A stretch of 44,142 nucleotides of DNA from an uncultured Elusimicrobiales bacterium. GTDB lineage: Bacteria > Elusimicrobiota > Elusimicrobia > Elusimicrobiales > Elusimicrobiaceae. Where the stretch lies: positions 1 to 44,142 of the forward strand of contig CALUZQ010000012.1 in NCBI GenBank assembly GCA_944325225.1, read 5' to 3'. Made by a program: the position numbers and the translations under genes. The notes under the pieces were generated by a model. The model worked only from the letters and a program-made list of their open reading frames with translations. It was not told the DNA's origin and searched no databases. Numbering within the stretch: the stretch's first letter is position 1; the number at the start of each line of letters is the position of its first letter. Shown piece by piece: positions 19-43,679 of the stretch.

Positions 19-47
19 GGGAATGTTTTTTGATAGATTTTGTTCAT
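19..47 (-). CDS. type IV pilin-like protein, 5' fragment cut by contig end
   Basis: Reading leftward from the ATG at 47, the first nine codons give MNKIYQKTF and the contig then ends. This matches the start of the two complete pilin genes in the window (MNKNYQKTF and MSKNYQKTF), and the upstream DNA is nearly identical too. It is therefore the leader-peptide end of a third pilin-like gene whose body lies outside the contig. There is no Shine-Dalgarno before the ATG. An in-frame TTG lies two codons upstream at 53, but the ATG sits in the same place in all copies. Confidence 0.8.
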
Positions 48-53
48 ACGCAA

Positions 54-97
54 AATTTATAAAAAAAAAAAAACAAGTCAAGCCCAGGGGCTGGGCT
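54..97 (-). promoter_or_regulatory. pilin promoter module, copy A (poly-T spacer)
   Basis: On the minus strand a TTGACT -35 box (76-81) is followed by a 16-nt spacer containing T13 (61-73), then TAAATT (54-59) as the -10 box, 6 nt before the pilin ATG at 47. A perfect palindrome, AGCCCAG-GGG-CTGGGCT (81-97), abuts the -35 box. The same arrangement occurs at 22585-22628 and, in part, at 8393-8420 and 1588-1630. The promoter role is inferred from box match and spacing. Confidence 0.55.
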
Positions 98-356: not shown

Positions 357-1490
357 TCAGCATTGAGACCACTCACTTCCAGATACCTCATTACAAGGTC
401 TTCGATCTTCTTCTTCACAATACTGGTAATGCCAATAAACAGTGAGAGAATGATCACAAGAAGTTTCATATCCACAATCATAATCATACCCATCATAACA
501 GTTACTGCCCAGATTATCATTACAGTTGAAACTTGTTCCTTGTGTCTTATTGTAATCAAAACAGGATTCATTCTCCATAAGAGAATCATGCGTACGGTAA
601 ACGGACTCAAGACCATACTCAGTAGATACCTCCGTAAAACTACTCAAACGATAGCGACAGCAATAATTGGGAGTACAAGTATCCTGCCACTCATTCCAGC
701 GGCAGGTATCATAATTCCATGTGCGCGTTTTTTCTCCACGGTAGCCCGATGGACAGGACTGCGTCGTCGGTTCCCCAGCCGGCGGATAACAGATGCATTC
801 CCCCTCCCAATCATTCCAGCGGCAAGTACTATAGTTCCAGGTACGCGTCTGCGTGCCTGTATAGCCAGACGGACACGATTGACTCGTCAGTTCTCCACTC
901 AGTGGATAACATTTTTCTGATTTCAATAAATAAGAAGTATAGCTGTTCCCCGTGGCACTCCCGTCAGCAGTATAATCCCGCGAATAAACATTACTCCATT
1001 CCATTTCATCGTTGCTACCTGTGTTGTTCGTCTGCACCTTAGAAGGAATCGTCAACGAACCCGTCTTCGCACCTTTTACGCCCATACTGCTTACATATAA
1101 GGTGCTGTTTACCTGGCTATTTATACTGCTAGCACCCGATAAACTCATCGTGTTTGCCATAATCCGTTTCGCTTTTAAGGTCCCTCCATTATTCACATTT
1201 AGTGCACTGCTCAAGCGATACTCCCCTACTGTTCCCTCTAAACTCGTTCCGTTTTTTAAAGTTAAACTCTGCAAATAAGCATTTGCCCCTCTCAATTCTA
1301 TTCGCCCGGTACTCGTGCGCGTATTGCAAAAATTTACGACCGGTGATACGGCCGCTGTTTCCGGGTCGGCCGTTTCCAACTGGGAGAAAGTTCCTACCGG
1401 AGAAGACAAGGTAGTTACAAATTGCAAATCTTCTGCCATTAAACCCAGTGGAAAACAGAAAAACAACATATAAAATAACAGTCGCTTCAT
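357..1490 (-). CDS. secreted Cys-rich surface protein with tandem TSP1-like repeats
   Basis: The product has 377 residues. A signal peptide (1-19, cut before EDL) is followed by a Ser/Thr/Asn-rich region (about 55-190) of the low-complexity, beta-rich kind. Two tandem 40-residue repeats follow (194-233 and 234-273). Each runs C-Y-P, G-E, QSCPSGY, TRTWNY, TCRWN, W and C, loosely like a thrombospondin type 1 module. The tail (274-377) is rich in Cys, Tyr and acidic residues. AAGGAG lies 8 nt before the ATG, so the start is firm. It sits behind a variant of the pilin promoter module (1588-1630). I know no assigned function. Export and extensive disulfide bonding are inferred, and a role in adhesion is only possible. 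Confidence 0.8.
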   Translation of the reverse strand: MKRLLFYMLFFCFPLGLMAEDLQFVTTLSSPVGTFSQLETADPETAAVSPVVNFCNTRTSTGRIELRGANAYLQSLTLKNGTSLEGTVGEYRLSSALNVNNGGTLKAKRIMANTMSLSGASSINSQVNSTLYVSSMGVKGAKTGSLTIPSKVQTNNTGSNDEMEWSNVYSRDYTADGSATGNSYTSYLLKSEKCYPLSGELTSQSCPSGYTGTQTRTWNYSTCRWNDWEGECICYPPAGEPTTQSCPSGYRGEKTRTWNYDTCRWNEWQDTCTPNYCCRYRLSSFTEVSTEYGLESVYRTHDSLMENESCFDYNKTQGTSFNCNDNLGSNCYDGYDYDCGYETSCDHSLTVYWHYQYCEEEDRRPCNEVSGSEWSQC

Positions 1491-1562
1491 GACGCACTCC
1501 TTAAAACAAAAATGAATAGGGCTAACTTCTGATTAGAAGTGTTTTTATAACGGCTACACGAC

Positions 1563-1587
1563 GGGGATCAGCCCTGGCTCAATCCCC
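1563..1587 (-). repeat. imperfect inverted repeat in the 5' leader of the surface-protein gene
   Basis: GGGGAT and AGCC pair with GGCT and ATCCCC around a 2-nt turn, giving a near-perfect stem. It lies immediately downstream of the proposed -10 box (1588-1593) and at the expected transcription start, so it could be an operator or a 5' mRNA hairpin. A smaller hairpin, ACTTCT-GATT-AGAAGT, lies at about 1529-1544 in the same leader. Confidence 0.5.
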
Positions 1588-1630
1588 ACTGTATCAAAAA
1601 AAAAAACGAGTCAAGCCCAGGGGCTGGGCT
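1588..1630 (-). promoter_or_regulatory. surface-protein promoter module, copy B (T11 spacer)
   Basis: On the minus strand TTGACT (1609-1614) is followed by a 15-nt spacer holding T11 (1596-1606), then TACAGT (1588-1593). The AGCCCAG-GGG-CTGGGCT palindrome (1614-1630) abuts the -35 box. Compared with the pilin copies, the T tract and the spacer are shorter by one base or more and the -10 region has a different sequence. The start codon here is about 100 nt downstream and has a proper Shine-Dalgarno, so this copy would give a leadered mRNA. Confidence 0.5.
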
Positions 1631-7876: not shown

Positions 7877-8386
7877 TTATGGCAAGAGAAAACCACCAGA
7901 AGACTGTTTTACACCGCCCAACGAGCGACAAAGCCGAATGGCTCTATCAGTAGTACCAAAACACTGACGCCGATTGGGCGTTTCAGAAAAAGATAACCAA
8001 GCAGTATATGAGGTCGTGGAATCCAATAAACTGCTACTAGCGTGCACATTGTATTGGGGCCCCGTATATAAGTCAATCATAAAATTATCACATCGGTAAT
8101 GTCCTGTAGAACCCGCAATTAATTGGCAATTAGCCGGCATATCTATATCTAAACTGTCCCATCCAGGAGCTTGTCCATTTGCCAAATAAGCTAATTCCAC
8201 CGCTCTGCGAACAGATTCTGTTATTGAAACCAAATTACTCCAGCGGGCTTTATCTACCGCCAACTGATACTGCGGCAAAGCCACCGCCGCCAAAATACCA
8301 ATAATTAAAACGACCACTAATAACTCTATTAGCGTAAATCCGGCGTTTTTCCCGCCGGGGAATGTTTTTTGATAATTTTTGTTCAT
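7877..8386 (-). CDS. type IV pilin-like protein (copy C)
   Basis: Starting at the ATG the product has 169 residues. A 16-residue leader ending in Gly is followed by the prepilin-peptidase site G/FTLIELLVVVLIIGILAAVALPQY, with Glu5 of the mature protein and a single hydrophobic assembly helix. The globular part contains CQL, RCDNF, QCFG and RLC cysteines that could form the usual disulfide loops. The first 40 codons and the upstream DNA are almost identical to the pilin at 22024-22578, while the rest differs. A TTG two codons upstream could be read as a start, but the ATG is the codon conserved at the contig-end copy. There is no Shine-Dalgarno. Surface pilus subunit or minor pilin is the likely role. 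Confidence 0.88.
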   Translation of the reverse strand: MNKNYQKTFPGGKNAGFTLIELLVVVLIIGILAAVALPQYQLAVDKARWSNLVSITESVRRAVELAYLANGQAPGWDSLDIDMPANCQLIAGSTGHYRCDNFMIDLYTGPQYNVHASSSLLDSTTSYTAWLSFSETPNRRQCFGTTDRAIRLCRSLGGVKQSSGGFLLP

Positions 8387-8392
8387 ACGCAA

Positions 8393-8420
8393 AATTTATC
8401 AAAAAAAAAAAACGAGTCAA
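8393..8420 (-). promoter_or_regulatory. pilin promoter module, copy C (no palindrome)
   Basis: TTGACT (8415-8420), a 16-nt spacer with T12 (8401-8412), and TAAATT (8393-8398) lie 6 nt before the pilin ATG. Similarity to the other copies stops right after the -35 box: the 17-bp palindrome and repeat R are missing here. This suggests that the box-spacer-box segment is the conserved functional unit. Confidence 0.55.
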
Positions 8421-22023: not shown

Positions 22024-22578
22024 TTATTCCACCGTAACCCAAGGAATTTTATAAACAGCCGACCCTTTATGGGTTTGAACCGGCTCACTGGATAGATAGC
22101 GGCATTCTTTTTCTCGCCCCATACAAAAAAGATTTCCAGGTTCAGCGCCCAGTCCACTGGCTGTGGACGGATTTAACGGCATAAATAATTGCGGAAAATC
22201 CGTACTCGCCGGAAAATAAATTCCGCCGCCGCCAGAATTTAATTTTAAATCCGAAGAGAGTGTTACCTGGCTGTCGCAATATATTCCAAATTCATACCTC
22301 ACATAATCAGAATATTCAATTCCCGCTAAATCGGCAAAAGCTCCTAAATCCAAACAGATTGCTGTTCCCCCATTTAAAATAAATAAATCCCGTCCTTTTT
22401 TAAAGGCCTTTAGCATAGGAAGCCGCTTCATTAGTTTACTCTTCATAACGGCCTTCTCATACTGTGGAAGAGCCACCGCCGCCAAAATACCAATAATTAA
22501 AACGGCCACTAACAGCTCTATTAGCGTAAATCCGGCGTTTTTAACGCCGGGGAATGTTTTTTGATAATTTTTGCTCAT
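22024..22578 (-). CDS. type IV pilin-like protein (copy D)
   Basis: The product has 184 residues from the ATG. A 16-residue leader ends in Gly before FTLIELL, followed by the same hydrophobic helix as copy C (VLIIGILAAVALPQY). The globular part differs (CLDLGAF, IYCDSQ, LFCMGREKECRYLS), with four Cys that could pair. DNA identity with the 7877-8386 gene is high, including silent sites, over the promoter and about the first 40 codons, then drops sharply. An in-frame TTG at 22584 precedes the ATG. No Shine-Dalgarno is seen. It is likely a pilus subunit or minor pilin processed by a PilD-type peptidase that is not in this window. Confidence 0.88.
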   Translation of the reverse strand: MSKNYQKTFPGVKNAGFTLIELLVAVLIIGILAAVALPQYEKAVMKSKLMKRLPMLKAFKKGRDLFILNGGTAICLDLGAFADLAGIEYSDYVRYEFGIYCDSQVTLSSDLKLNSGGGGIYFPASTDFPQLFMPLNPSTASGLGAEPGNLFCMGREKECRYLSSEPVQTHKGSAVYKIPWVTVE

Positions 22579-22584
22579 ACGCAA

Positions 22585-22628
22585 AATTTATCAAAAAAAA
22601 AAAACGAGTCAAGCCCAGGGGCTGGGCT
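22585..22628 (-). promoter_or_regulatory. pilin promoter module, copy D (poly-T spacer and palindrome)
   Basis: TTGACT (22607-22612), a 16-nt spacer holding T12 (22593-22604) and TAAATT (22585-22590) lie 6 nt before the pilin ATG. The palindrome AGCCCAG-GGG-CTGGGCT (22612-22628) shares one base with the -35 box. It could be an operator. The distance to the T run (7 nt past the stem) makes it a poor terminator. Confidence 0.6.
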
Positions 22629-22640
22629 CCCCACTCCAGG

Positions 22641-22670
22641 CCCGTTCGTGCAACTCGCTTGGGCCACACT
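22641..22670 (-). repeat. 30-bp dispersed repeat R, copy D
   Basis: This is CCCGTT, a variable stretch, CAACTCG, CTTGG and GCCACACT, the same pattern as the copies at 110-139 and 1643-1892. It lies about 30 nt upstream of the -35 box of the pilin promoter, as at copy A. A CCTTCCAG motif follows at about 22702, as also seen beyond the other copies. Confidence 0.6.
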
Positions 22671-31417: not shown

Positions 31418-34400
31418 TTAGAATTGTACCGTTACATTAGCCGCGATATTATACGCGGTGTAATCTTCGGTTTTTACATAAGCGTGATTGAGCAGGGTCA
31501 GCCCGCCGCCGACGGTAAACCGCAAATTCTGGGAAAGTTCGTAATCCAGCGAAGTGCTGAAATCAAACTTTCGGTAGTTTTCTTTTACTTCCACGGGAGA
31601 GCGTTTATCCGTATAAGCGAGGGTGGTGCTCCAAATCACGCGGTTGGTAGCGTTGTACATTTTGTTGATAAACGGCAGTTTAAAACCGCGGGGCAAATTG
31701 AAGTCCCAACGCAGGTTTAAACTGGGGGTGGTTTCGGTACTGCTCTCGCTGATTTGGCCGCCCACCAGCCATTTGTCGTGCGAATTGTAAAGCAGTTTGG
31801 GCGTTACGCGCATGGAACCGATATAGAAAGAGGTCTGGGCGGAAATATCATTGTCTTCCACGCGTTCCAAACTGGTTCCGGCACGCAGGTCGGTTTTATC
31901 CGATTCCTGCCGGGTATAGTTAAGCACCGTGTCAAAATAATTAAACAGCATAAACCGGAAGTCGCCGCCGTATTGAGTGGTAAATTGCTCGTCGGTCGCC
32001 TCAGTGGTTTGTTCCACCCAGCTATAACGCAGTTTTAAGTTGGTGGAGCTGAACCAACTGCCGCCGTAAAAGAATTTTTCTATATCGGAAATAGAAAAAG
32101 TCATATCCGGCAAGGTTAAGCTGGTGGAATCGTATAAGGTGCCGGTTTCGTCGTTGGTTTGGAAAGTTTTGGTAAAGTTGTTAATAAGCGAAATCGTTTT
32201 AAGCGGAGAAGCCGCCCCGCCCAACTCGTACTGCGAGAACGGGCTCCAGCGTTGGGTGGAAGTAAAAGTATCGCGCAAAATTAAGCTTTTTCGGTACCCG
32301 TATTCGCCCACATCTTTAAGCGAACTTCTAATCCATAACTCTTTGCGGGAATCAAATCCGCTGTCCACATCGTACCAGGAATCGGCGTCCTGGATACGGT
32401 AGCTGGAAGAAATTACAAAAGTATTAAAGAGTTTGCTGTTGGGCAAAAGTTCATTCCCGTTGAGCGTAAGCGAGATGCCGCCGTCGGCATTACGGTTGAC
32501 GGTTTTCACTTCCCCCACGCCCACCGTTACTTTCTGGCCGGAGGCGGTAACCGTTTTGGCATTGAGGTTATTGCTTTCCACCGTGCTGATGTTGTAGCTG
32601 ACGGAGGGAGCCAGCCAGTTGGTAATTTTCCAGGTGCTGTTGAAACCCGTATTTTGGCTCATGGCTTTGGGATAACTAATATCCTGCGCCGAAGTTTCGT
32701 CGTAAGTGGTGCGGTCCTCTTTGCTTTTGGTTAAGCTATAGCTGGGCGTAAAATTAAAGTTATTCGTGGGCTGATAGGTTACCTTCATATTCATTTTTTG
32801 GGTATTTTCGTCGGTATTATAGTAACTGTCGGACTCCAGGTGCCGGCTCCGGTCGTAATCTATGGATGAATCGGTAATGTGATAGCCGGCCGTGATATTT
32901 TTAAAGGAACCGGTTGAATGCGTCAGCGTGGCGCCGTAGGTGCGGGCGTCGTCTTTGCGTTTCATCGCGTCATACTCTACCGTATCTTCGGTATATTCCA
33001 AACCGATTTGCGGCAAATTGTCTTTCTTAAAATCTCCGCGGATAACGGCACGCTGCCGGTCCACTTGCCCTTTATCCAGCAAGCTGATGGTGTTGTAGTC
33101 GGTAGTATCGGTAACCATGGGGGTAACGGTAGAGGAGCGGGTTAAATTGGCTTCCATGGGAAACTCTTTAATTTTATCCACTTTCAAAAAATACTCTTCT
33201 TCCGTAATTTCCTGTTTTTTAGAAACGGCCAACGGGGTTTCAAAATTACTGTCCTGATACTTGTATTTCGCCCCGGCGCTTCCCCAGTCTTCCAGCTTTA
33301 CCACCACATCCCCTTTATAGGCCGTTCCTTCCAGCGTAATGGCGTCCGCCAGGTGAATAACATTCAGCCACACTTCGCCCTGGCTTCCCAGCGCTGTAAT
33401 GGGGCCCAGCGTGGCCGTATAGGCGGCGCCGTCGGCCAAAACAACCTGGTAAGAACCGTCCGGCAGGGAGGCCACGGTCTGCACGGTACCGGCGGAGATG
33501 GCAAAATTAGCGTCTTTATAAACTGCCAGACCGGGCTGTAAAATGCCGCGGGCATACAGTGTTTGGGAAGTTTGGTCCTGCACGAAGGTATATTCATAGC
33601 GGCTTTCGGCCTGCACCCCAGTAAACATCAAGCTGACTTCCCGGAAGTTCATCACGCCGCCCGGCGCGCGGCGGCGAACTACGCGCACATTGTAGTCGGG
33701 GTTGGAGGCATTTTCAAAGGAATCGGGCACGCCGTCGCCGTCCGTATCCACCATTTTTAACGAAATCAGACGCCAGCCGCGGAAGTCCGTCGGCACAATC
33801 ACTTTATCAAAATTGGTTTCCGTACCTACTTTTAAGAAAAACTCCGTGCCGGGCTGATTGAGCGGCGCGCTGCCGCCTTGCTGCATAGCGCCGTGCAGCA
33901 AAAAGCGGAACTCGCGGTGCTGGGTAAAATCCATACTCGCAAAATTGCGGTTGGCGTAGCGTTCGCCGGCGGGTTCTTCTTCTTCGGAATTATCCGGCAC
34001 GGCCGGCAGGCCGATGGTATTAAATTTCACATTCAAGGCCTGGTCCAGCGCGTTGGCCGAACCGGTGGCCTGCTTGTAATTGGAGATAGAACCGTACAAA
34101 TAATTGAAAACGGTCAGTCCGTCGCCGGTGGTATCGGCGAAAATCGGTTCGTAGTTGGTATTATCCACATTGTTAATACCGGAAACGGAAAAGATATCCG
34201 GGTCGGTTTCATTTTGGGCGTTCCACGCTGTGCCGGACAGCGACACATTGGCAATTTTAATTTGTCCTTTGAGTTTGCCGGCCCGTTTCATTTCGTCGGT
34301 CAGTTTAATTGTAATACGCAGGTGGCGGATAGCCGTCCATTGTTCTTTCTCGTCGGTGGAAAGCAGCAGCGGCATGGTGTAGGTGGTCCAGGAAGTATTG

Positions 34401-37072
34401 GAAGCGGTATTGTTTACCAATCCGTCTATGGCCGCCCCCGCAAAACCAAAGTTCCCCTGCAAAGGGATACTTTCAGCGTCATATGCGCCGTTATTATTCA
34501 AATCCTGCGTATCAATGCGGCCGTTGGGCTGGGATTCGGGATTATAGATATTATTTACAAACGGATTATAGCGCTCTTGCGTACCGTCCGGGTTGGTAAA
34601 CAGCCAGCCGATATCCTCATTCGGGGCCAGGGTATTGCGGCAATAGATGTTTTCCGTTTTGGGCACATTGGTACCGCATTGGGTATCCATACCGTTGGAA
34701 GAATCGGAATATTCGGAGATATTCCCGAAAGCAAAGTTTACCTGCGGGCCGTTTTCTTCGCCCAGCATGGTCAGTTCAAAAGAGGTCTTGCTGGATAAAT
34801 CCATACCGCTTTGGCTCAGCGGATAGACGATAGACACTTCGTCGCGGCCTTCTTCGTTTAAAAACGGCTGTCCCGTCGTTTGGTCAATGGTCGTAGCCGG
34901 GAGGGTGAAATCGTAATTTAAAATCAGCACTTGCTGTTTATCGTTGTAATTGGCGATGGAGTGCGGATTGATTTCCAGTGCGGGCAGATCCTGCGTATCC
35001 CAATGAATAGAATTTAAGAAAGCGGGTTTGCCGCTGGGGTTGGAAGCAAAAATCCAGTCCCTGAAAATGCGGGACCCGGCCACTTGTTCGTTCGTTTCGT
35101 TCATACTGTCCACCATGGCGTAACCAAACAAGTTCTGCTCGTTGCGGCTTTTGGCCACTTCCGCGCTGAAATCCACCGACAGCGGATCAGCCAGCTTGAT
35201 ATCTTTCCCGTTGATATCGGCCCCATAGACCAATAGCTTTTTGGAATAATTGCCCACCTGGGGGACGGTGGTCGGCTTCTCGCCGGATTCCTGGAGCATG
35301 GTGGCCCCCATGACGATTTTATCAAACAATTTATAATCCAGCCGTCCGCCCAAAACCGAGTTGTTGGAACTGGAACCGGTGGTGGTATCGTAGGTAATGT
35401 CTATGACGGAATTTTCGGTAATTTCGTCGCCCTTGTAAAAAGTGATAAAGCCGGAAGTATAATCAATATAATAATCGTTATTGCGGGTGAGCGTACGGCC
35501 GTTCAATTTAACCGTTTCCGATTCAATAACGATGCCCGATTCTATAAAATAAGTTTTTACGGTGGACTCGTATTGAATTTTAAACGACAAGTTTTTAGAA
35601 GAAGTGGGCGTAGCGCCGTACAGTCCGGTATCGTTTAAACGGTAGGACAAATTAAAAATACCCGTATTGAAATCCACTTCAATATACGAAGGATAGGTAT
35701 AATAACTGCTGGAAACGGGCTGACCGTTAGCGTCCTGCAACTGCAAAATAAAATTGCCTTTGCCGTTATCCTGCGTGATTTTTTGCGCCCCGATATTGTA
35801 ATAAGTTTTTAATTCCAGCTTATTGGCGGTTTCGGTAACCATGGCGGAGCCGGTCTCTATGGATTTATCGTTTTCGGTTTTAATCAGTTTAATGGCACCG
35901 GGTTTGCCCATGGTATTGCTGAGCTGATTGCCGCGCGTATCGCGGTAATCCACGGCAATTACGCTTTCGGCCGTAACCGTGCGTTTAAATGTGATGATAC
36001 CGCTGGCATAATCCACCGTATAATCCACCCCGCGGGTAAGCAGCTGCCACTTGGCCGGATACTCCGTATCGCCCAACACATCGGTAGCGATGCGGTCCAC
36101 CGGCACATAATCGGAGGAGGTGGAAGAATCGTTGCTGTAATAATAGATTTCTTCGGTACCCGGGGAAATGCTGCCCATCAGCGAGCGCCACTCGTCATAA
36201 GCCGTGCGGTCCAGCGGATAGCGGATATTGCCGCTGTTATCAATATACGGCCGTACATTTCCGCCGAAAGTCAAATCGTAATAAGTGCGGCGCAGGTATG
36301 AGGTATCCGCCAGCGAAATAATTTCCGATACACTGCTGCCGATAAATTGCTTTTGCTTGCTGGAACCTTTCGTCTGCGAGCCGATTAAATAGAGGTTGGC
36401 GTTTCCTTGCTGCAAGTGCATTTTGGCCCCAAACAGCTGTTTTTGATACGCAATAAATTCCGTTTCCGGCAGGGACAAATTAATATCGCCAAATTCCGCC
36501 AACTGCACCACTTCGCCAGGTTTGCCGCGATATGCTACCGAGATGGTCTTTTCTTCTTCGCGCTGGTCGTCGTAGTCAATATCCACAAATACCCGCTCCA
36601 AAATTTTACCCTGCATTTTTAACTGCATTTCCTGCTGCATTTCAAAGGAGTGAGTATTGCGCTGTTCAATATCGTTATTGGAATCCTGTTTGTATTTTTG
36701 GGCCGCCATAGAAAACCCCAGCACATACCGGCCGGTCAACGCAATACTGGTACCGTAAAGCGGCAGCGATAGCGTAGGATTCAAAAGGGTTAAATCCGGA
36801 ATGGGCTCCGGTTCGTTATCCAGTTTATAAGCGCCGTCCACCGCGGTAACGGCCTGGCGCCAAAACTCATTGGTAAATTTAAGCAGCTGGGCATCGTCCG
36901 GCGGATCTTCCAGCACCAGGGCAGCTTCTTCTTTGGCTTGCTGGTCCTCGGAAAAGAGGGAATATTGATCCCGGTCCACTAAGCTGTACGGCAACGATTC
37001 GGCGCCGGCCGGAGGGGCGGCGACGAATTGCAAAATCAGCAGCAGGGCGACAGGAAGCCGCAGTATTTTCAT
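31418..37072 (-). CDS. giant SprA-like outer-membrane protein
   Basis: The 1,884-residue product has a signal peptide (1-24). Segments resemble the repeated SprA/Sov domain of Bacteroidota: KMQGKILERVFVDIDYD, VQLAEFGDINLSLPETEFI, LFGAKMHLQQGNANLYLIGS, then long stretches of alternating hydrophobic residues as in a large beta-barrel. DFTQHREFRFLLHG and the EFFLKVG and GWRLISLKM segments also recall SprA. DTDGDGVPDS is a TSP3-like calcium motif. The last residues, NVTVQF, end in Phe, as in Bam-targeted barrels. SprA is the type 9 secretion translocon and is about 2,400 residues, so this is shorter. No other T9SS gene is visible. GAGG is far (13 nt) from the ATG. It is followed by comF. Confidence 0.62.
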   Translation of the reverse strand: MKILRLPVALLLILQFVAAPPAGAESLPYSLVDRDQYSLFSEDQQAKEEAALVLEDPPDDAQLLKFTNEFWRQAVTAVDGAYKLDNEPEPIPDLTLLNPTLSLPLYGTSIALTGRYVLGFSMAAQKYKQDSNNDIEQRNTHSFEMQQEMQLKMQGKILERVFVDIDYDDQREEEKTISVAYRGKPGEVVQLAEFGDINLSLPETEFIAYQKQLFGAKMHLQQGNANLYLIGSQTKGSSKQKQFIGSSVSEIISLADTSYLRRTYYDLTFGGNVRPYIDNSGNIRYPLDRTAYDEWRSLMGSISPGTEEIYYYSNDSSTSSDYVPVDRIATDVLGDTEYPAKWQLLTRGVDYTVDYASGIITFKRTVTAESVIAVDYRDTRGNQLSNTMGKPGAIKLIKTENDKSIETGSAMVTETANKLELKTYYNIGAQKITQDNGKGNFILQLQDANGQPVSSSYYTYPSYIEVDFNTGIFNLSYRLNDTGLYGATPTSSKNLSFKIQYESTVKTYFIESGIVIESETVKLNGRTLTRNNDYYIDYTSGFITFYKGDEITENSVIDITYDTTTGSSSNNSVLGGRLDYKLFDKIVMGATMLQESGEKPTTVPQVGNYSKKLLVYGADINGKDIKLADPLSVDFSAEVAKSRNEQNLFGYAMVDSMNETNEQVAGSRIFRDWIFASNPSGKPAFLNSIHWDTQDLPALEINPHSIANYNDKQQVLILNYDFTLPATTIDQTTGQPFLNEEGRDEVSIVYPLSQSGMDLSSKTSFELTMLGEENGPQVNFAFGNISEYSDSSNGMDTQCGTNVPKTENIYCRNTLAPNEDIGWLFTNPDGTQERYNPFVNNIYNPESQPNGRIDTQDLNNNGAYDAESIPLQGNFGFAGAAIDGLVNNTASNTSWTTYTMPLLLSTDEKEQWTAIRHLRITIKLTDEMKRAGKLKGQIKIANVSLSGTAWNAQNETDPDIFSVSGINNVDNTNYEPIFADTTGDGLTVFNYLYGSISNYKQATGSANALDQALNVKFNTIGLPAVPDNSEEEEPAGERYANRNFASMDFTQHREFRFLLHGAMQQGGSAPLNQPGTEFFLKVGTETNFDKVIVPTDFRGWRLISLKMVDTDGDGVPDSFENASNPDYNVRVVRRRAPGGVMNFREVSLMFTGVQAESRYEYTFVQDQTSQTLYARGILQPGLAVYKDANFAISAGTVQTVASLPDGSYQVVLADGAAYTATLGPITALGSQGEVWLNVIHLADAITLEGTAYKGDVVVKLEDWGSAGAKYKYQDSNFETPLAVSKKQEITEEEYFLKVDKIKEFPMEANLTRSSTVTPMVTDTTDYNTISLLDKGQVDRQRAVIRGDFKKDNLPQIGLEYTEDTVEYDAMKRKDDARTYGATLTHSTGSFKNITAGYHITDSSIDYDRSRHLESDSYYNTDENTQKMNMKVTYQPTNNFNFTPSYSLTKSKEDRTTYDETSAQDISYPKAMSQNTGFNSTWKITNWLAPSVSYNISTVESNNLNAKTVTASGQKVTVGVGEVKTVNRNADGGISLTLNGNELLPNSKLFNTFVISSSYRIQDADSWYDVDSGFDSRKELWIRSSLKDVGEYGYRKSLILRDTFTSTQRWSPFSQYELGGAASPLKTISLINNFTKTFQTNDETGTLYDSTSLTLPDMTFSISDIEKFFYGGSWFSSTNLKLRYSWVEQTTEATDEQFTTQYGGDFRFMLFNYFDTVLNYTRQESDKTDLRAGTSLERVEDNDISAQTSFYIGSMRVTPKLLYNSHDKWLVGGQISESSTETTPSLNLRWDFNLPRGFKLPFINKMYNATNRVIWSTTLAYTDKRSPVEVKENYRKFDFSTSLDYELSQNLRFTVGGGLTLLNHAYVKTEDYTAYNIAANVTVQF

Positions 37073-43596: not shown

Positions 43597-43679
43597 GGGC
43601 TGGTGGCGGAATGGCAGACGCGACAGACTTAAAATCTGTTGACCGCAAGGTCGTGGGGGTTCAAGTCCCCCCCTGCCCA
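43597..43679 (+). tRNA. tRNA-Leu (anticodon UAA)
   Basis: The 83-nt cloverleaf has anticodon stem ACAGA/TCTGT with loop CTTAAAA (anticodon TAA), long variable arm GACC-GCAA-GGTC, and T arm GGGGG-TTCAAGT-CCCCC. The D arm is GCG-GAATGGCAGA-CGC. The acceptor stem GGGCTGG/CCTGCCC has a U:U mismatch at pair 5:68. The 3' CCA is not encoded (A73 is followed by CTT). The long variable arm and the anticodon fix the identity. Confidence 0.93.

Follow-up and report, generated by a model that had tools for sequence, protein, structure and literature searches.

The window, by which we mean the whole stretch of 44,142 nucleotides analysed here, is contig C12 of a 1.63-Mb, 55-contig genome of an uncultured gut bacterium of the Elusimicrobiaceae. 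Its minus strand carries four copies, A to D, of an element in which a run of T occupies nearly all of the space between TTGACT and a -10-like hexamer. Read directly and recovered by pattern searches, copy A (54..81) consists of TTGACT (76-81), TG, T13 (61-73), a single A and TAAATT (54-59). Copy B (1588..1614) has TTGACT (1609-1614), CG, T11 (1596-1606), GA and TACAGT (1588-1593), copy C (8393..8420) has TTGACT (8415-8420), CG, T12 (8401-8412), GA and TAAATT (8393-8398), and copy D (22585..22612) has TTGACT (22607-22612), CG, T12 (22593-22604), GA and TAAATT (22585-22590). The sequence-only reading that drew attention to these sites was exact about the layout: the spacers measure 16, 15, 16 and 16 nt around runs of 13, 11, 12 and 12 T, copy B is one base shorter than C and D in both run and spacer (T11/15 against T12/16), and the T13 of copy A goes back to a G-to-T change within the GA preceding the -10, which leaves the spacer at 16. 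The ranges it gave fit the boxes as well, although for A, B and D they also took in a GC-rich palindrome upstream of the -35. With up to two mismatches, TTGACTNGT10 is matched four times in the window against 0.07 expected from shuffles, and every T10 match falls inside copies A-D. A chance origin of the layout was rejected, as controls give 0-3 matches.

The same reading had placed pilin and surface-protein genes behind these sites. This holds for A, C and D, which precede prepilins, whereas copy B precedes a secreted protein that is not a pilin. The prepilin gene of copy C (7877..8386, minus strand, ATG at 8384-8386) encodes 169 aa, MNKNYQKTFPGGKNAGFTLIELLVVVLIIG, and matches the Pfam N_methyl domain (PF07963) with an E-value of 3.2e-8; that of copy D (22024..22578, minus strand, ATG at 22576-22578) encodes 184 aa and matches the same domain with an E-value of 3e-8. 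Both have the class III signal peptide of type IV prepilins (G/FTLIE) together with this domain. Behind copy A only about ten codons of a prepilin gene remain (MNKIYQKTFP; 19..47, minus strand, ATG at 45-47), with an N-terminus identical to that of intact pilins. The gene is cut by an Illumina adapter, ACGACGCTCTTCCGATCT, at positions 1-18 of the window (the contig start), which is assembly contamination. Copy B is followed by a 97-nt leader (1491..1587, minus strand) in which a stem-loop (GGGGATTGAGCC..GGCTGATCCCC) comes early and AAGGAG serves as Shine-Dalgarno (SD) sequence, and then by a gene for a 377-aa protein with a signal peptide (357..1490, minus strand), for which no Pfam match was found. 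The RNA fold of the stem-loop (z -1.8) is merely suggestive. An Rfam search of the window found no known RNA in this leader, its only hits being a tmRNA gene (RF00023; 42678-43024, minus strand) and one tRNA (43597-43679, plus strand). An ORF of 1884 aa at 31418-37072 (minus strand) is likewise without a Pfam match.

The four copies belong to a family dispersed over the genome, with the consensus TTGA(C/T)T-YG-T12-GA-TA(A/C)A(T/G)T. Genome-wide counts, which rest on pattern searches and fetched stretches, are 35 strict copies and 48 looser ones (TTGACTNGT7), against 0 with reversed-pattern controls. All 69 runs of at least ten T in the genome were located and read: 64 belong to the poly-T promoter family, a divergent copy (L239) makes a 65th member, and of the remaining four, which lie outside the family, three are near contig ends. 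Conversely, about 50 of the 64 FTLIEL pilin starts in the genome are preceded by the T-run promoter, while in the promoters of about 13 other pilins that were read, T-runs do not exceed eight or are absent. The downstream genes fall into three classes. Class 1 comprises the leaderless pilins (GATAAATTTTGNNTATG), class 2 eight copies before secreted or similarly led genes with a leader (GATACAGTGGGGATT...), a count in which some downstream genes were unreadable, and class 3 two SD-led pilins on contig C22. What lies behind the family is thus a set of surface structures, namely prepilins with the N_methyl domain and proteins bearing signal peptides. The class-2 leaders (window 1491-1593 and loci L046, L049, L057, L218, L223 and L235) begin with GGGGATT..AATCCCC, so the stem seen behind copy B is kept in other class-2 copies of the genome. 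Where they could be read, the class-2 proteins mostly have a common N-terminal half, which the copy B protein shares, and differing C-terminal halves with no Pfam match; they are possibly a modular surface protein family.

Comparison of these classes strongly supports the reading of the poly-T core as a promoter. The same -35, T-run and -10 stand before leaderless pilins, SD-led pilins and secreted proteins, and the spacing within the core is constant even though the copies differ in leader, in type of gene and in how far they lie from the start codon. The element has the form of a sigma-70 promoter, TTGACT-N16-TAAATT with a spacer mode of 16, and the TG preceding the -10 box makes it an extended -10. 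The -10 box and the ATG are 6 nt apart in most pilin copies, TAAATT beginning 12 nt before the start codon, and there is no SD sequence. From this position the mRNA of the pilin copies is probably leaderless, with a start site that we infer at or close to the ATG. A TANNNT placed some 10-12 nt ahead of the start codon, with no SD sequence, as found throughout the leaderless pilin class, is the TA-led layout typical of leaderless bacterial genes (PMC3160421, PMC12340547). However, those genes have no tie to a homopolymer and are reported chiefly from Actinobacteria and Deinococcus-Thermus, unlike the pilin promoters described here. Translational slippage on the T-run was also considered and rejected, since the sequence after the run, ahead of the ATG and in its frame, contains a TAA stop (within TGATAA).

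A GC-rich palindrome, GCCCAGCCCCTGGGC, abuts the -35 of copy D upstream (22613..22627, minus strand), and others lie upstream of the -35 at A (82-96) and B (1615-1629), with none at C. Many copies in the genome have such a palindrome directly upstream of TTGACT with the T-run after it, an arrangement reminiscent of intrinsic termination; the element would then end transcription of the gene upstream and be no promoter at all. However, in a terminator the hairpin would pass directly into the T-run, and here a conserved stretch of 8 nt, TTGACTCG, separates the two; moreover, copy C and the copies at L055 and L057 have no palindrome. The 8-nt gap and the missing hairpins led us to reject this reading, and with the two boxes and the gene starts at fixed distances we consider it extremely improbable. 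The palindromes are of several unrelated sequences and adjoin the -35 box exactly, and in several orthologous pairs similarity stops at the boundary between palindrome and -35. A 29-nt dispersed repeat, GTGTGGCTTAAACGAGTCGTGTTAACGGG, occurs upstream of many poly-T promoters and elsewhere, and in the window five times on the minus strand (110-138, 1643-1671, 1732-1760, 1863-1891 and 22641-22669) against 0 in shuffles. At other promoter copies a different repeat family, GCACCGTAATT..GGCCTGGAAGGCC, is found upstream.

The pilin copies have a further feature on the other side of the T-run, an inverted repeat that joins the 3' part of the run and the -10 box to the first pilin codons. In copy C (8365..8406, minus strand) arms of 17 nt (8390-8406 and 8365-8381), 94% complementary, surround the start codon; in copy D (22557..22598, minus strand) the arms measure 18 nt (22581-22598 and 22557-22574), again 94% complementary, with a DNA fold z of -4.9. 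The reverse-strand matches of a search with T6 followed by GNTANANT revealed the symmetry: the first codons (MNKIYQK) contain AAAATTTATCAAAAAA as the counterpart of TTTTTTGATAAATTTT. Among 140 copies, which are related and hence not independent trials, most arms match at 15-16 of 16 positions and the 10-nt centre is kept in 139. Codons 3, 5, 6 and 7 are nearly always AAA, TAT, CAA and AAA, while the pilin gene bodies use CAG at 41-42%, AAG at 21-29% and TAC at 12-17%. In species G001 of the same genus the dyad lies wholly in an untranslated leader, upstream of the SD sequence. Near-fixed codons in one setting and a non-coding dyad in the other point to a constraint at the level of DNA, and the dyad may be an operator that covers the -10 and the start.

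This opens the possibility that a dimeric repressor or other regulator binds TTTTTGATAAATTTT-N10-AAAATTTATCAAAAA, across the -10 and the start codon, and that the T-run serves mainly to complete the left half-site. The conservation of arms, centre and codons, the non-coding counterpart in G001 and the fold of copy D all favour it. However, the half-site holds merely 5-6 of the 12 Ts, the secreted-protein class (and class 3 likewise) and several other species carry the T-run without the dyad, a search for compensatory changes in the dyad found none, and the regulator is only putative. We regard such an operator as a plausible proposal that falls somewhat short of an even chance, and one that does not compete with slippage in the run, since the two may coexist. 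The dyad could also be folded as RNA, and if the T-run were transcribed, an mRNA hairpin would hold the AUG in its loop. Control at the RNA level is nevertheless very improbable: the position of the dyad is fixed with respect to the -10 and not the ATG, the G001 dyad precedes the SD sequence, and the T-runs of classes 2 and 3 lie outside any such hairpin.

The T tracts within the -35/-10 spacer span T8-T17, beyond chance length. Among 137 copies, the spacers measure 10 bp (1 copy), 12 (4), 13 (5), 14 (6), 15 (19), 16 (91), 17 (7) and 18 (4), so that 66% are at the mode of 16 bp and 34% off it, with 117 of the 137 at 15-17 bp. The sequence-only reading had taken the run for a candidate slippage switch and proposed that tract lengths be compared among related genomes. 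The clearest case is a pilin block of about 1 kb that is about 99% identical between MAGs of two species (loci L113 and L154), where the surroundings agree at 82-85%; the block, with promoters near 4573 of L113, is a recent exchange of a pilin gene together with its promoter. Over 840 aligned bp there are three substitutions, T10 against T8 in the tract and one G6/G5 change that frameshifts the pilin of the T8 copy. This pair has gene bodies 99.5% identical, and a second pair, at 98.7%, differs by T12 against T11, while pairs at 100% and 99.5% identity retain T12. The tract is thus hypermutable relative to its flanks, as judged from few pairs between species; the timing of the length changes rests on four or five close pairs, all between short-read MAG assemblies. 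A search of viral contigs for strain variants found none. Over 28 related pairs, which are partly non-independent, spacer length is equal in 18, little above the 46% of random copies, from which tract length appears to be largely redrawn since divergence, within narrow bounds. The mutability of the tract counts in favour of the proposal, and the grouping of spacers around 16 bp speaks against a switch that varies freely.

Relatives show the same centring. The strict element is present in 20 of 66 genomes of the genus and in 0 of 24 genomes of other genera, and the pattern T10-G-N-TA-N2-T in 51 of 90 genomes of the family. Species G001-G005 and the sister genus g5 have T10-T15 at the same position before SD-led pilins, with differing -10 boxes (a perfect TATAAT in G003). 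The spacers in other species are mostly 16 bp although the remaining promoter has diverged, as in TTGACA-TCG-T11-GC-TACATT, TTGATT-TG-T13-C-TACAAT and TTGAAT-CA-T14-TATAAT; in effect these species hold 16 bp at T10-T15 through altered flanks (T15+ATAAT, T13+C). Next to the -10, the spacer has nothing but T in all copies examined, many of these loci having been found by patterns that require T-runs, whereas FTLIELLVVV is variable at its synonymous sites (pi about 0.5); a search pattern without that requirement gave only three non-T spacers among the matches listed. The run is otherwise pure apart from some interruptions, such as TTTTC-T9 in L198, whose spacer is 18 bp long like that of the orthologue. 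Mismatch repair usually suppresses mononucleotide slippage. Its loss as the cause of slippage here is unsupported, as genes for both MutS1 and MutL are present.

Five observations, namely the anatomy of the element, its copy number, its near-exclusive location, its hypermutability between close relatives and the pull towards 16 bp, are established by the analysis. We somewhat favour the prediction that slippage in the poly-T promoters has a biologically relevant effect on expression. In this model a dispersed common promoter would govern the accessory pilin repertoire. RNA polymerase would read TTGACT and the extended -10 (TG-n-TAAATT) over a nearly all-T spacer of 16 bp, and in the pilin copies transcription would start at or beside the ATG and yield a leaderless mRNA. 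Replication slippage in T12 would alter the spacer by at least 1 bp and move the promoter off its working spacing, so that T12-T13 (16-17 bp) would be on, T11 (15 bp) weaker, and T10-T8 (14-12 bp) weak or off. About 50 pilin genes would drift independently, the population would come to hold cells with different pilin mixtures on their surface, and selection would repeatedly restore the tracts to T12. Supportive of a switch are the near-confinement of long T-runs to pilin and secreted-protein promoters, with about 13 other pilins doing without, the hypermutable length, and the precedents of Neisseria nspA and Mycoplasma hyorhinis vlp described below. Against it count the scarcity of long T-runs in some pilin-rich species, the 16-bp centring with compensating flanks, the presence of MutS1 and MutL, and a general liking for T before the -10.

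The last three of these points belong to the chief rival, in which the family is co-regulated at a fixed strength, the T-run serving the architecture of the promoter, as a stiff or bent tract ahead of the extended -10, and having been copied along with the multiplying pilin genes, and slippage being selected away with no switching. In addition to the spacer mode across diverged species and the repair genes, some other pilins have T6-T8 with TGnTAnAnT, and T6 followed by GNTANANT gives 99 matches against 3 for the reversed pattern, many of which are the family itself or the inverted arm. Shorter T-runs also precede an extended -10 at some ordinary-looking promoters, and T-richness may be mere promoter chemistry. 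However, pilins with different promoters have no runs of ten or more, changes in T length outpace those in the flanking bases, and 15 of the 137 copies still have spacers of 12-14 bp. Moreover, some species with 33-43 pilins have merely 5-7 long T-runs, which argues that the T-run is not needed for pilin expression. On balance we hold the fixed-strength account to be unlikely, if still the most serious competitor of the slippage prediction. The two could coexist, with 16 bp as the working state and neighbouring lengths weaker.

The type of mechanism is already known, and what is new is the scale, the host group, the leaderless start and the attached dyad. In Neisseria, a poly-G tract in the promoter of porA, a single surface gene, has a demonstrated effect on expression. 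The promoters of Neisseria opc (poly-C) and nspA (poly-A) resemble the element described here in that they serve surface proteins and have the homopolymer within the -35/-10 spacer or next to it (PMC3960869, PMC6389960), and in nspA one base in the A-tract upstream of the -10 sets transcription (PMC6389960). Unlike here, opc and nspA are single genes, their expression change has been demonstrated, and opc has a tract of the C/G type (PMC3960869, PMC6389960). The sabA gene of Helicobacter pylori has a promoter poly-T, but it is one gene and also has a coding CT repeat (PMC2715451). The fimbrial subunit (fim) promoters of Bordetella pertussis, like the pilin promoters, carry a homopolymer; however, the tract is of C, it separates the -10 from an activator site, and copies are few (PMC1891110). 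In Bordetella 74% of 69 homopolymers are polymorphic between species (PMC1891110). A parallel at the level of a whole gene family is found in the vlp genes of Mycoplasma hyorhinis, which, according to PMC10502178 (citing Citti and Wise 1995), have an A-tract in every promoter and so form, as here, a surface multigene family with an A/T homopolymer promoter for each gene. In that account switching of vlp is proven; here it is a prediction. The family described here also differs in its about 64 copies, dispersed over one genome, in serving pilins and not lipoproteins, and in having an inverted repeat and probably leaderless starts. A full-text literature search combining Elusimicrobi with phase variation returned nothing, by title or abstract, on phase variation in the phylum.

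If length controls output, this would be among the largest sets of slippage promoters of one design in a single genome, and the resulting combinatorial surface variation would provide a mechanism for the unexplained expansion of pilins in these gut bacteria. One could go further and imagine some 50-64 poly-T promoters across the genome, each slipping on its own, under a shared start-codon operator, an arrangement that would give each cell its own pilin mixture and yet allow all copies to be silenced or released together, combining stochastic and coordinated control on one leaderless promoter; we offer this as speculation that will probably prove wrong in part. If length is irrelevant, the family would still be a natural series on the all-T spacer, its length and promoter strength. 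Between species of one genus the number of runs of at least ten T per genome goes from 0 to 204, a range over which it might be traced how such a candidate switch was acquired and lost. The upper end is species G004, where many of the 204 runs are followed by GCTACAT, and where further T11 runs, found ahead of pilins and on the opposite strand, end in GATTTGTCAA or GATCTGTCAA.
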